A stretch of DNA of 64,000 nt from Pseudofrankia inefficax (GTDB lineage: Bacteria; Actinomycetota; Actinomycetes; Frankiales; Frankiaceae). The stretch lies in assembly GCF_000166135.1 (NCBI RefSeq), contig NC_014666.1:3410001-3474000 (forward strand), in the 5' to 3' direction. Both the position numbers and the translations under genes were made by a program. Under the pieces are notes generated by a model, which was given only the letters and a program-made list of their open reading frames with translations, searched no databases and was not told the origin of the DNA. Positions 50,990 through 55,318 of the stretch are shown here, one piece after another; within the stretch, counting starts at the first letter, position 1, and the number at the start of each line of letters is the position of its first letter.

Positions 50990-52105
50990 GTGGACTTCGC
51001 GTTCAGTACCGAGCAGGACGAGCTGCGGGCCGTGGTCCGCGGCTTCCTCGCGGACCGATCTCCGGAGCCCGACGTCCGTCGCCTCATGGAGACCTCGGAT
51101 GGCTTCGACCCGACGGTCTGGAAGGAGATGGGCGAGGACCTCGGGATACTGGGCCTCGCGATCCCCGAGGAGTACGGCGGCGCCGGTTGCGGCATCGCGG
51201 AGGTCGGCGTCGTCCTGGAGGAGGCCGGCAGAGCACTGCTGTGCGCGCCGTACTTCTCCAGCGTCCTGCTCGCCTCGTACGCCCTCCTGCACAGCGGCGA
51301 CGAGGCGGCCAAGGCGGACTATCTGCCGGGCCTCGCGTCGGGTCAGCTCCGAGGAACGCTCGCGCTCACCGAGGACGACGGCCGGTGGGATGAAGGCGGC
51401 ATCGCGCTGCGCGCCCACCGCTCGGCGGCCGGCTGGACGCTCGACGGCCACAAGAGCTTCGTCATCGACGGCGGTACCGCCGATGTCCTCGTGGTCGCCG
51501 CGCGCACCTCCGGCGGCGTGAGCCTGTTCGTGGTCGACGGCGCGGCGCCAGGTCTCGCCACGACGGCGATGGCGACCATGGATCTCACCCGGAAACAGGC
51601 CCGGCTGGAGTTCTCCGGTGTCCGCGCCCGGCTGATCGGCGTCGAGGACGGCGGCTGGCCGGTTCTGTCCCGGGTACTCGATCTCGCCGCGGTCGGACTG
51701 GCGGCCGAACAGGTCGGGGGAGCGGCGCGGGTCATGGAGATGGCCGTCGACTACGTCAAGGTCCGGCACCAGTTCGGCCGGGCCATCGGCTCGTTCCAGG
51801 CCGTCAAGCACAGCTGCGCGAACATGCTCGTCGACGTCGAGTGCGCGAGGTCGGCGGCGTACTACGGACTCTGGACCGCCGCCGCGGACAGCGACGAGCA
51901 GCAGGTGGCGGCCAGTCTCGCCAAGGCCTACTGCTCCGAGGCCTACGTACGCTGCGCCGGGGTGAACATCCAGCTGCACGGTGGGATCGGATTCACCTGG
52001 GAACATCCCGCGCACCTCTATCTCCGGCGCGCCAAGAGCTCGCAGCTGCTGTTCGGCGACTCGGCGTTTCACCGCGACCTGCTGGCCCAACGGGTCGGGA
52101 TCTGA
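50990..52105 (+). CDS. Acyl-CoA dehydrogenase, small-type
   Basis: A 371-residue acyl-CoA dehydrogenase of the small class. The central FAD segment is degenerate (ALTEDDGRWDEGG), and the C-terminal QLHGGIGFTWEHPAHLYLRRA is conserved. No large-type partner gene is adjacent, so it probably pairs with a subunit encoded elsewhere, for example the partnerless large-type enzyme at 23983. GTG 50990 with GGGAGA upstream. A perfect TAAG-type element is at the promoter and a TetR gene follows after 16 bases, so both may share one transcript. Confidence 0.89.
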   Translation: MDFAFSTEQDELRAVVRGFLADRSPEPDVRRLMETSDGFDPTVWKEMGEDLGILGLAIPEEYGGAGCGIAEVGVVLEEAGRALLCAPYFSSVLLASYALLHSGDEAAKADYLPGLASGQLRGTLALTEDDGRWDEGGIALRAHRSAAGWTLDGHKSFVIDGGTADVLVVAARTSGGVSLFVVDGAAPGLATTAMATMDLTRKQARLEFSGVRARLIGVEDGGWPVLSRVLDLAAVGLAAEQVGGAARVMEMAVDYVKVRHQFGRAIGSFQAVKHSCANMLVDVECARSAAYYGLWTAAADSDEQQVAASLAKAYCSEAYVRCAGVNIQLHGGIGFTWEHPAHLYLRRAKSSQLLFGDSAFHRDLLAQRVGI

Positions 52106-52121
52106 GAGCGAGTCACCGATC

Positions 52122-52772
52122 ATGGCAGGTCTCCGGGAGCGCAAACGCACCGAGACCCGGCAGCGCATCTCCGCCGGCGCGACGCGGCTGTTCGAGCAAC
52201 ACGGCTTCGAGAACGTGAGGCTGGTCGAGATCGCTGCCGCGGCCGACGTGTCCGTCAATACGGTCCTGAACTACTTCAGGGCCAAGGAGGACATGTTCTT
52301 CGACGCCGAGCCGGCCAGCTGTGACGAACTGGTGACGGCCCTCTCGGAGCGCGGTCCTGCCTCGTCCGCCGCGGCGCTTCGACCGCTGCTCGTCGACAGC
52401 CCGATACTGGCGGGCTCGTTACCCTGGGCGTCGGTTGACGACAGCTGGTGGAACGCGCTGCGCGAACGGGCCGCCTGCGAACGGCGGTCGCCGGCGCTGA
52501 CCGCGCGGCGGGCGTCGATCCTGTTGTCCTGGATGGCGCCGCTGGCCGAGGTGACCGGCTCCGCGGCGTGCGCGGCGATGGTGACCGGCATACTGGCCCT
52601 CCGGCAGACCGTCATGCAGGACGGGCTGATCGACGGGCAGAGACCGAGCATTGTGGGGCCTCGGGTCCGGACCATCATGAACAACGCACTGGACGCGCTC
52701 GAGCGGGCTTTCCCGGCGGAGCACCTCGGCCCGGTGGCGCCGGTTCCCCTCCAGGAAGCTCGGCAATGCTAA
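52122..52772 (+). CDS. TetR family transcriptional regulator
   Basis: A 216-residue TetR repressor. The DNA-binding domain spans about residues 7-55: RISAGATRLFEQHGFENVRLVEIAAAADVSVNTVLNYF is a very clear helix-turn-helix (quoted family region, split by helices). The C-terminal ligand domain is helical and unrelated in detail to the TetR at 48489. It is 16 bases behind the acyl-CoA dehydrogenase and 18 before the Rieske gene, so it is probably cotranscribed from the promoter with the TAAG-N8-CTTA element at 50917. That makes it the best candidate in the window for the protein that binds the recurring element, by autoregulation; this is an inference. Confidence 0.88.
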   Translation: MAGLRERKRTETRQRISAGATRLFEQHGFENVRLVEIAAAADVSVNTVLNYFRAKEDMFFDAEPASCDELVTALSERGPASSAAALRPLLVDSPILAGSLPWASVDDSWWNALRERAACERRSPALTARRASILLSWMAPLAEVTGSAACAAMVTGILALRQTVMQDGLIDGQRPSIVGPRVRTIMNNALDALERAFPAEHLGPVAPVPLQEARQC

Positions 52773-52790: not shown

Positions 52791-54002
52791 ATGTTATCTG
52801 CCGCTGAATCTTTCCAGGCTGTGTCGAACGAGGAACTGGCGTTCCTCGGCACCGGACCGGTGCCGACGGCTCCGTACTACGACCGTGAGTACCACGAACT
52901 GGAGCGGGAGGCCGTCTTCAGGCGCAGCTGGCTGCATGTCGGGCGGGTGAGCGAGCTGACGGGAACCGACCCGTTCCTCGTCCGCCGGATCGGCGTCGCC
53001 CGAGCATCCGTGCTGATAACCCGGTCGCCGGACGGCGTACTGCGCGCGTTCCACAACGTGTGCCCGCACCGCGGCAACGAGCTGGTCGCCGAGGATGCCG
53101 GCGAGGCCCGATCGTTCAGCTGCCGGTACCACATGTGGAACTTCGGCACCGACGGCACGCTGCGGGCCGTACCTGACGAGAAGCGTTTCTACGATCTCGA
53201 CCGGTCCGCCTGCGGGCTGCGACCGATCGCCGTCGACACCTGCGCCGGCTTCCTGTTCGTCCATCTCGACGCCGCGCCGGCGCAGTCGCTCCAGGAGTCG
53301 CTGGGTCCGTTCGGCGACGACCTCGAACGGATCGGCTTCGCCCGCTTCACCGACTTCGAGCAGTACTCCTGCGACGTGGCGGCCAACTGGAAGACGGCCG
53401 CGCACAACTTCCAGGAGAACTATCACGTGCGCTGGGTGCATCGGCCGTCATCGGGCGGGCGGGCGACCTCCCGCGAGAACCCCTTCGGCTACAACTCGAG
53501 TTTCCGTTTCCACGGTCGCCACGGCGGCGGGACGCACTGGATCCCGCCCGGAGCGGCGCTGTCCGACGTCCGGGCCACGGCGATGCGGGCGGCGCCACCG
53601 GCCGACGACGCGCCGTGCCGCGGCAACTTCGACTTCTTTCACCTGTTCCCGAACCTCTACATCGAGCCGCTGGGAGGCTTCAACACGTTCACCATGCAGT
53701 TCTGGCCTCTCGACACCGAGCGCACCCGGCTGGTGGTCCGGGTCTACCGGGCCGGCGACGACACCTCGGCCTCGGCTCGGTTCAGCCGCGAGTACACCGC
53801 GTCGTCTCTCATGGACGTGCACGTCGAGGACGTCGAGGTGATCGAGGCGAACCAGCGTGGACTGCGGTCGGGCGCGCTCGAGCACATCCACTTCGGGGCG
53901 CAGGAAGCGTTGTGCCGTCAACTCCATGAGAACGTGGCCGAGATGGTCCGCACCTACCTGACGGGGCGTTCCACCGTGCCGGCCCGCACCGACGTCCGAT
54001 GA
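52791..54002 (+). CDS. Rieske non-heme iron oxygenase, alpha subunit
   Basis: A 403-residue ring-hydroxylating oxygenase alpha subunit. The Rieske [2Fe-2S] centre is Cys91-x-His93 and Cys111-x2-His114 (CPHRGNEL and CRYHMWNF). The mononuclear iron site is in HNFQENYHVRWVH with His212 and His217, plus Asn206/Glu209. It would insert oxygen into a substrate using electrons from a separate reductase and ferredoxin, none of which is in this operon; no beta subunit is present either, so it may act as an alpha-only type. Its TGA overlaps the ATG of a small unknown gene. Confidence 0.9.
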   Translation: MLSAAESFQAVSNEELAFLGTGPVPTAPYYDREYHELEREAVFRRSWLHVGRVSELTGTDPFLVRRIGVARASVLITRSPDGVLRAFHNVCPHRGNELVAEDAGEARSFSCRYHMWNFGTDGTLRAVPDEKRFYDLDRSACGLRPIAVDTCAGFLFVHLDAAPAQSLQESLGPFGDDLERIGFARFTDFEQYSCDVAANWKTAAHNFQENYHVRWVHRPSSGGRATSRENPFGYNSSFRFHGRHGGGTHWIPPGAALSDVRATAMRAAPPADDAPCRGNFDFFHLFPNLYIEPLGGFNTFTMQFWPLDTERTRLVVRVYRAGDDTSASARFSREYTASSLMDVHVEDVEVIEANQRGLRSGALEHIHFGAQEALCRQLHENVAEMVRTYLTGRSTVPARTDVR

Positions 54003-54370
54003 GCCAGGGCCAGCTCCCGCCCGGGTTCGAGGCGTTGGAGCCATTCACCGGCCACTGGGTGGCGGATACCCGCGGGCAGCGGGTTGGGCTGCGAGTGCGG
54101 AGCCGTCTGCCGGAACTGGAGGCGTTCTACGACGTGGCCAAGGAGTTGCTCGCGCCGGCCCTGGGCTATCTCGACGCTCGGCCGCTCGCCGATCTCGGTG
54201 AAGCCGACGCGCGGCTGCTCGGCCTCGTGCTGGCCCTCCCGCAGGTGGCGCTGGCCGTCGAGCAGCAACGTGACGCGGAGGCGGCGCACGCTCGGGTGCA
54301 GGCGAGGTTCGTCGTCGACCGCACCAGCGCCGATTTCGGCCAGTCCGCATCGCCGAGTGCCACCTGCTGA
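53999..54370 (+). CDS. Hypothetical protein, coupled to the Rieske oxygenase
   Basis: A 123-residue protein of unknown function, not recognised. It starts with PPGFEALEPFTGHWV, where an aromatic and proline pattern recalls the front of small acyl-CoA or oxygenase accessory proteins, and has a hydrophobic helix around LLAPALGYLDARPLADLG. No cysteine cluster or metal motif is seen. The ATG overlaps the preceding TGA (ATGA), so it is translated with the Rieske oxygenase and probably helps it. The following MaoC-like gene begins 105 bases later. Confidence 0.6.
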   Translation: MSQGQLPPGFEALEPFTGHWVADTRGQRVGLRVRSRLPELEAFYDVAKELLAPALGYLDARPLADLGEADARLLGLVLALPQVALAVEQQRDAEAAHARVQARFVVDRTSADFGQSASPSATC

Positions 54371-54475
54371 CGACCGGCAGGTCGGCGGACCGACGCGGTA
54401 TCGGTGGCGCCCTGATCCGGTCGAGGCCACGTTGTGACATGAGCCGACCGCCGCGTGGGATGGAGTGACACTGGT

Positions 54476-55318
54476 GTGATCGACGCCGATGCCCTCGCCG
54501 AGGACGCGATCGGCCCGTTTCCGGGGTGCCTGAGCGCCGACCTCATCCGCCGTTACGCCAGCGCCACCGGTGAGCGGTCGGAGCGGCCCCGGGCCGGCCT
54601 GGCGGTGCCTGCGGTCGCGGTGGTGACCCAGATCTGGGCGGCGCAGGAGGCTGGCCGCTCGGCGCTGGTCAGCGAGGACCTGCTGGCGGCCGCCTCGGGC
54701 GGGGTGCACGGCGAGCACGATGTCGTGCTGCACCGGCCGCTGGTTCCCGACGAGCCACTGCGGACCTGGGTACACCGCTTCGCGGCTCGCCCGGCGGGCC
54801 GGAACGCTCTGGTCACCTTGCGCTATTCGACGGTGGACGAGCGCGACGAGGTCGTCGCCGAGCAGCTGTGGACGACCGTCTATCTGAACGCCGGCTGCGC
54901 GGCGGCCGGGGCGCCCCTGCCCGACCACGCCTTTCCCGCCGGCGCACGCCGGCGCCCGGTGGGGGAGTACACGACGACGGTCGATGCCGATATGCCGCGC
55001 CGCTACGCGGAGGTGTCGGGAGACTGGTCGGACCACCATTTCGACGCGGCCGCCGCCCGCCGCAGCGGATTCGACCGGCCGTTCCTGCACGGGCTGTGCA
55101 CGATGGCGCTGGGCGCGCGGGCGGTCGTCGACGCGGTGGCCGGCGGCGATCCGGATCGGGTGCGGCGAGTCGCGGTGCGGTTCGCCGCGCCGGCCTTCGT
55201 CGGCGCGGACCTACGGGTCGGCGTCTACGAGGCTGGCGGACGCAGCTATGCCTTCGAGGCGATCTCGGATGGACGCGCGGTCCTCACGCACGGCCGGGTG
55301 GAGCTGCGCGGCGAGTAG
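54476..55318 (+). CDS. MaoC-like double hot-dog protein
   Basis: A 280-residue protein with two hot-dog halves. The first half (about 1-140) resembles non-catalytic MaoC N-domains; the second has RYAEVSGDWSDHHFD (about 173-187), a variant of the hydratase motif where D-x-N-P-x-H is changed to D-W-S-D-H-H, then GFDRPFLHGLCTMALGARAVV. It probably hydrates or hydrolyses a CoA thioester; the changed motif leaves catalysis uncertain. The start may be GTG 54476 (GGAG ten bases before) or GTG 54455. It ends the operon that includes the Rieske enzyme. Confidence 0.78.
   Translation: MIDADALAEDAIGPFPGCLSADLIRRYASATGERSERPRAGLAVPAVAVVTQIWAAQEAGRSALVSEDLLAAASGGVHGEHDVVLHRPLVPDEPLRTWVHRFAARPAGRNALVTLRYSTVDERDEVVAEQLWTTVYLNAGCAAAGAPLPDHAFPAGARRRPVGEYTTTVDADMPRRYAEVSGDWSDHHFDAAAARRSGFDRPFLHGLCTMALGARAVVDAVAGGDPDRVRRVAVRFAAPAFVGADLRVGVYEAGGRSYAFEAISDGRAVLTHGRVELRGE

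Follow-up and report, generated by a model that had tools for sequence, protein, structure and literature searches.

Rieske oxygenases are much-studied biocatalysts, many of which have no known substrate, and they are usually described as α3, α3α3 or α3β3 assemblies. The DNA analysed here (the window) is a 64,000-nucleotide stretch of the Pseudofrankia inefficax genome (contig NC_014666.1, positions 3,410,001 to 3,474,000) in which the gene for one such oxygenase, RO, is followed by the gene for a small acidic protein, SM. What does this small protein do, and does it belong to the oxygenase or to a wider gene cluster? A preliminary description of the locus had proposed that RO, SM and a downstream MaoC-like enzyme could form a new oxygenase module with a CoA ester as its substrate, in which the small protein would be an accessory or docking subunit. 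The genes concerned, in window coordinates, are as follows.

50990–52105, + strand: acyl-CoA dehydrogenase (PF00441, PF02771 and PF02770 over cut-off)
52122–52772, + strand: TetR-family regulator (PF00440, E 1.8e-11; start inferred from the reading frame)
52791–54002, + strand: RO, alpha-type Rieske oxygenase, 403 aa (PF00848 and PF00355)
53999–54370, + strand: SM, small acidic protein, 123 aa, starting within the RO stop
54455–55318, + strand: MaoC-like double hot-dog protein (PF01575, E 9.6e-19; a GTG start at 54476 is possible)
Key residues of RO: C91-x-H93, C111-x2-H114, E209 (bridging position), H212, H217, D347

RO keeps both the Rieske domain (PF00355, E 3.9e-15, 56.0 bits against a Pfam cut-off of 20.3) and the catalytic domain (PF00848, E 1.3e-49, 169.4 bits against 24.9). 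It has the Rieske motif CxH-17-CxxH as well as, by position, a mononuclear-iron set of two His and one Asp and a bridging acid, and all of the residues listed above are invariant in an alignment of 12 ROs of its subfamily. We take these residues to be the Rieske ligands, iron ligands and bridging Glu on the strength of known RO motifs, and their ligand roles were assigned by position rather than from structure because the RO structure model has a pLDDT of 33. Read in this way, H212, H217 and D347 are the probable mononuclear-iron ligands.

The closest NCBIfam match of RO is the glycine betaine monooxygenase GbcA (E 4e-29), although the cut-off of this equivalog (NF058607) is missed, with 101.3 against 670 bits, and its closest PDB match is the carnitine monooxygenase CntA (E 1.7e-31). 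We know of no SM-like partner for CntA. Excerpts of a study of this α3 enzyme (PMC7948474) describe it together with its reductase, CntB, and report that electron transfer from one subunit to its neighbour depends on the bridging Glu; this residue, E205 in CntA, is shared by the window RO as E209. The preliminary description had noted that no reductase, ferredoxin or beta subunit lies near RO, and searches with three Pfam profiles agree. PF00970 and PF00111 have no match at E ≤ 0.01 in the window (3410001–3474000), so the redox partners are presumably shared or distant. For the beta subunit family PF00866 no match exceeds the cut-off in the 64-kb window, a row at 3436853 (E 0.009) falling below it. 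Across the whole genome PF00866 has one strong match, at 4.99 Mb beside another RO, and a second match at 3.10 Mb just above the cut-off.

SM is a real coding gene under purifying selection. As had been described, its open reading frame overlaps that of RO by 4 nt (ATGA). It has family copies elsewhere, its third-position GC content (0.85–0.86, compared with 0.50 at second positions) is similar to that of neighbouring genes, and comparison with Frankia sp. AgB1.9 (NG86) yields a dN of 0.061 and a dS of 0.239, hence a dN/dS of about 0.26. Family membership, this GC bias and the dN/dS together rule out a chance open reading frame. The same comparison gives dN 0.012 and dS 0.134 for RO, and dN 0.069 and dS 0.214 for the MaoC-like gene.

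The description of SM as unrecognised also holds. The window protein has no Pfam match at E ≤ 10, and thus no GST-like domain by this measure, nor does it have an NCBIfam match, and neither database places an Fe-S, flavin or NAD-binding domain in it. When 13 SM members were compared singly with Pfam at E ≤ 1, the lone match was to a DUF (E 0.13). A PDB sequence search with the SM family profile returned unrelated chains, the best being a stathmin-like domain at E 0.02, and Foldseek found no match at E ≤ 0.001 with an SM model that is itself weak (mean pLDDT 70, pTM 0.52, from a two-sequence alignment). Rieske beta subunits have an NTF2-like fold. Like the PF00866 beta subunits of α3β3 dioxygenases, SM is small and encoded beside the alpha subunit; unlike them, it is predicted to be helical, and PF00866 matches neither the window SM nor the 13 members.

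The window protein has a mass of ~13 kDa and a pI of 5.1 (family median 4.3, 83 members), with helices predicted at residues 11–19, 37–59 and 68–114. Across 83 family sequences P7, F10, W20, R28, R32 and L73 are invariant, and W20, R28, R32 and E88 stand out as conserved residues. There is no conserved Cys or His. Identification of SM as a beta subunit, ferredoxin or reductase was rejected, given the missing Pfam and NCBIfam matches and the lack of a conserved Cys. Absence of conserved Cys and His residues, along with the helical prediction, speaks for a protein-binding role rather than one in redox or metal chemistry.

The genomic distribution of SM ties it closely to RO. The P. inefficax genome (8,815,781 bases, single contig) holds seven SM copies at E ≤ 1e-7, and all seven lie directly behind an RO. 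Among its 17 genes with PF00848 (18 rows), an RO profile separates two groups cleanly, with 8 ROs scoring about 488 bits or higher and 9 scoring no more than 212. This profile was built from 12 members and the SM profile from 13, and both were run against whole genomes; because the RO profile came from SM-paired ROs, the pairing is in part built into the definition of the subfamily. In 35 Frankiaceae genomes, every SM is directly downstream of a subfamily RO (62/62), and 62 of the 75 subfamily ROs carry SM. Among the matches listed for family f4 (151 genomes), the corresponding counts are 61/62 and 61/61, and the single exception is an SM at a contig edge, beginning at base 266, which directly follows an 89-residue piece of an RO. 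A further 23 genomes from a class-level sample of 393 contributed 56/56 SM genes with an RO, and 56 of 57 RO hits with SM, the leftover being a partial hit (again among the matches listed).

Summed over these three Actinomycetota samples, 179/180 SM genes lie directly behind a subfamily RO and 179/193 subfamily RO hits carry SM, among the matches listed. It had been suggested that absence of the small gene next to homologous oxygenases would speak against a link, and the opposite is observed. Gene order therefore gives good support to the view of SM as a partner dedicated to the oxygenase. The ends of the two profile matches lie −5 to 98 nt apart. The genomes with SM are also those with the RO subfamily: 16 of the 35 Frankiaceae, at least 26 of the 151 in family f4, and at least 49 of the 393 in the class sample. 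A sample drawn across the whole phylum has few genomes with SM (at least 7 of 246). No RO-SM fusion occurs in 75 SM matches from 72 loci, two of these matches being truncated at the end of the locus sequence, beyond which their upstream RO lies. A single scan of viral contigs, with a paralogue from locus L010 as the query, revealed no SM relative, and a search of genome contigs returned one relative locus among the matches listed, that of Frankia sp. AgB1.9 (L013). One locus carries a tandem RO-SM-RO-SM array (L009:4474–7669), with a separate SM for every RO copy.

For Proteobacteria the coverage is of plasmids only, 72,556 records of which were searched at the protein level. SM relatives, annotated as hypothetical proteins or left unannotated, were found at 21 places in 20 records from Novosphingobium, Sphingomonas, Sphingobium, Acinetobacter, Cupriavidus, Burkholderia and Variovorax, so that the RO-SM subfamily is present in Actinomycetota and in alpha-, beta- and gammaproteobacteria. 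Fifteen of these loci were read, and in 13 of them SM adjoins an RO on the same strand. The order is RO then SM in nine pairs and SM then RO in four (L016, L091, L094 and L096), and the link is therefore not merely one inherited operon layout. A 4-base overlap between the genes recurs in L014, L095, L098 and L099, and in L091 with the order reversed. The two exceptions, L017 and L100, are on the lin-gene plasmids pISP4 of Sphingomonas MM-1 and pMI1 of Sphingobium MI1205.

Several plasmid loci have features of their own. On the two lindane-degradation plasmids just named, SM lies near linC, and an RO fragment is found on the opposite strand behind IS6100. In Sphingomonas sp. NBWT7 (L099:2726–4318), one of the 13 pairs, the RO is annotated as two pieces ahead of SM, probably because the copy has decayed or because of a sequencing error. 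On pRSMS1 of Sphingobium sp. RSMS (L095:299–6992) the RO-SM pair is enclosed by two copies of ISRsp3, an IS21-family element, and no further large gene is annotated in the interval, an arrangement that resembles a minimal mobile cassette.

A FastTree phylogeny of 120 ROs placed the 113 subfamily members in one clade (0.995) apart from 7 other ROs of the P. inefficax genome; ROs matching fewer than 350 profile positions, including L107 and L109 of that genome, were left out. SM is present on both of the deepest subfamily branches, the split between them being weakly supported (0.42). Thirteen Frankiaceae ROs that lack SM form one nested clade (0.994), comprising:

L104:3583–4848 (P. inefficax genome, 8.147 Mb) and L171–L182: SM-less subfamily ROs

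In L104 an SDR gene closely follows the RO and there is no trace of SM. Since these ROs form a single nested clade, the simplest reading of the tree is that SM was lost once within the subfamily. Because 13 subfamily ROs do without it, SM is not indispensable to the RO fold, and this clade offers a natural control for its role. The window RO itself groups with those of Novosphingobium P6W and Sphingobium V4 (1.0), and not with the six remaining P. inefficax pairs. This placement suggests that the window pair probably either crossed between phyla or represents an old divergent lineage.

Distance matrices for RO and SM are strongly correlated (r 0.915 for 83 pairs, a value reached in 0 of 1000 permutations), and r is 0.891 once RO pairs more than 80% identical are excluded. 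This correlation is inflated by shared ancestry, and it shows joint inheritance rather than binding. Partial correlations of SM distances with the Rieske domain (0.41) and the catalytic domain (0.48) single out neither. Comparison of SM-paired with SM-less ROs gave no interface signal, yielding 2 columns where a control clade had 1.

We consider it rather probable that SM serves as an accessory subunit dedicated to a subfamily of ROs that lack a beta subunit, carry the bridging Glu and are probably α3. A stoichiometric accessory subunit is favoured by the pairing, by the lack of a redox or metal signature in SM and by a precedent, the required non-redox accessory protein NdmE of the NdmCDE caffeine demethylase (excerpts of PMC4408171). 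Those excerpts describe NdmE as GST-like and as serving NdmC, which is without a Rieske cluster of its own, whereas SM is a 123-residue protein with no Pfam match, and its RO has both the Rieske and the catalytic domain. As an accessory subunit, SM would be made from a gene that follows its RO and that, in the window, overlaps the RO stop, an arrangement suggestive of coupled translation and of matched amounts of the two proteins. The small acidic helical protein would then bind the RO trimer and either stabilise it or shape the face used by the substrate or a redox partner, while electrons would arrive from a reductase or ferredoxin encoded elsewhere. We infer the binding, the stoichiometry and the coupling, as well as a role that would be structural rather than catalytic.

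A bolder version, to which we give less than even credence, is that SM is an undescribed, stoichiometric third kind of RO subunit that is needed by most of the subfamily. On that version, which we hold just as tentatively in its remaining parts, SM would be neither alpha nor NTF2-type beta, and many of these ROs would be incomplete or inactive when cloned alone. The 13 SM-less Frankiaceae ROs count against a subunit, as do L017 and L100, which keep SM with an RO fragment only. If SM is indeed a needed partner of the subfamily, a new subunit type would be added to the Rieske oxygenases, subfamily members cloned alone would have been expressed incomplete, and co-expression with SM could reveal substrates. 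SM is not described in the open-access literature as searched through result listings and the starts of abstracts. Beta subunits and the α3-type and α3α3 enzymes appear in excerpts of a 2025 review (PMC12445004), and those excerpts make no mention of an accessory, small or additional protein, or of NdmE.

The main rival to the accessory-subunit reading is that SM acts as an assembly or maturation factor, in folding, Fe-S or iron loading, or trimerisation, and is absent from the finished enzyme. The tight pairing, the small acidic helical character of SM and the single SM-less clade fit a chaperone equally well. Nevertheless, this seems unlikely to us, as each RO has its own SM even in the tandem array, where one shared chaperone might do, and SM lacks the conserved Cys or His residues that metal handling would call for. 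An adaptor role, in which SM would dock onto RO a reductase or ferredoxin whose gene lies elsewhere, would suit the acidity of SM and the lack of PF00970 and PF00111 matches in the window. However, clusters that encode their own ferredoxin or reductase carry SM too, from which it follows that SM does not replace these proteins, and SM distances are not closer to the Rieske domain than to the catalytic domain in the partial correlations given above; we regard the adaptor as improbable. Linkage alone is no proof of binding, and W20, R28, R32 and E88 could line a small pocket, as in a small enzyme or ligand-binding protein that serves the RO pathway without contacting RO. This we judge very improbable, since the pairing persists while the neighbours differ and no common pathway step is evident.

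To the combination of RO, SM and the MaoC-like enzyme as one three-gene module acting on a CoA ester we attach scarcely any probability. The three genes share a strand and are closely spaced, an acyl-CoA dehydrogenase gene lies upstream, and all five genes occur in identical order in Frankia sp. AgB1.9 (L013). Identities to the AgB1.9 proteins are 97% for RO, 89% for SM and 88% for the MaoC-like protein, and the TetR and acyl-CoA dehydrogenase counterparts in the same places are 92% and 96% identical. Among the loci compared, however, most with ~1.5 kb flanks, MaoC relatives are confined to the window locus and that of AgB1.9, and there are none in 35 loci with wider flanks (22 with SM, 13 SM-less). 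The neighbours elsewhere include SDR, TauD-type dioxygenase, aldehyde dehydrogenase, P450, luciferase-like and CoA-transferase genes. Thus, the co-occurrence that the preliminary description set as a check is seen for RO with SM (179/193 RO hits, among the matches listed) and not for the MaoC-like gene, and the proposed module is not supported. With flanking genes that vary and MaoC relatives so confined, it is the RO-SM pair that gene order identifies as the conserved unit, the other genes being local and the MaoC-like gene no conserved part of it.

The usual hydratase motif is GDxNPxH. The MaoC-like protein exceeds the PF01575 cut-off, as a relative of the MaoC and HadA/HadB hot-dog hydratases would; unlike HadA and HadB, it has the motif GDWSDHH, in which Asp and His are kept and N and P are lost, as the earlier mention of an altered motif implies, and it misses the HadA, HadB and fused HadA/HadB cut-offs. 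A CoA-ester substrate, suggested by the acyl-CoA dehydrogenase and MaoC neighbours, is a guess, and the TetR gene just upstream of RO possibly encodes a local regulator. A gene for a TauD-type Fe/2-oxoglutarate dioxygenase directly follows SM in L010, L012, L183, L184 and L185, and enzymes of this type are a possible recurring second partner in Actinomycetota clusters. In L011 one gene lies between SM and the TauD-type gene, and the SM-less locus L173 also has a TauD-type gene.
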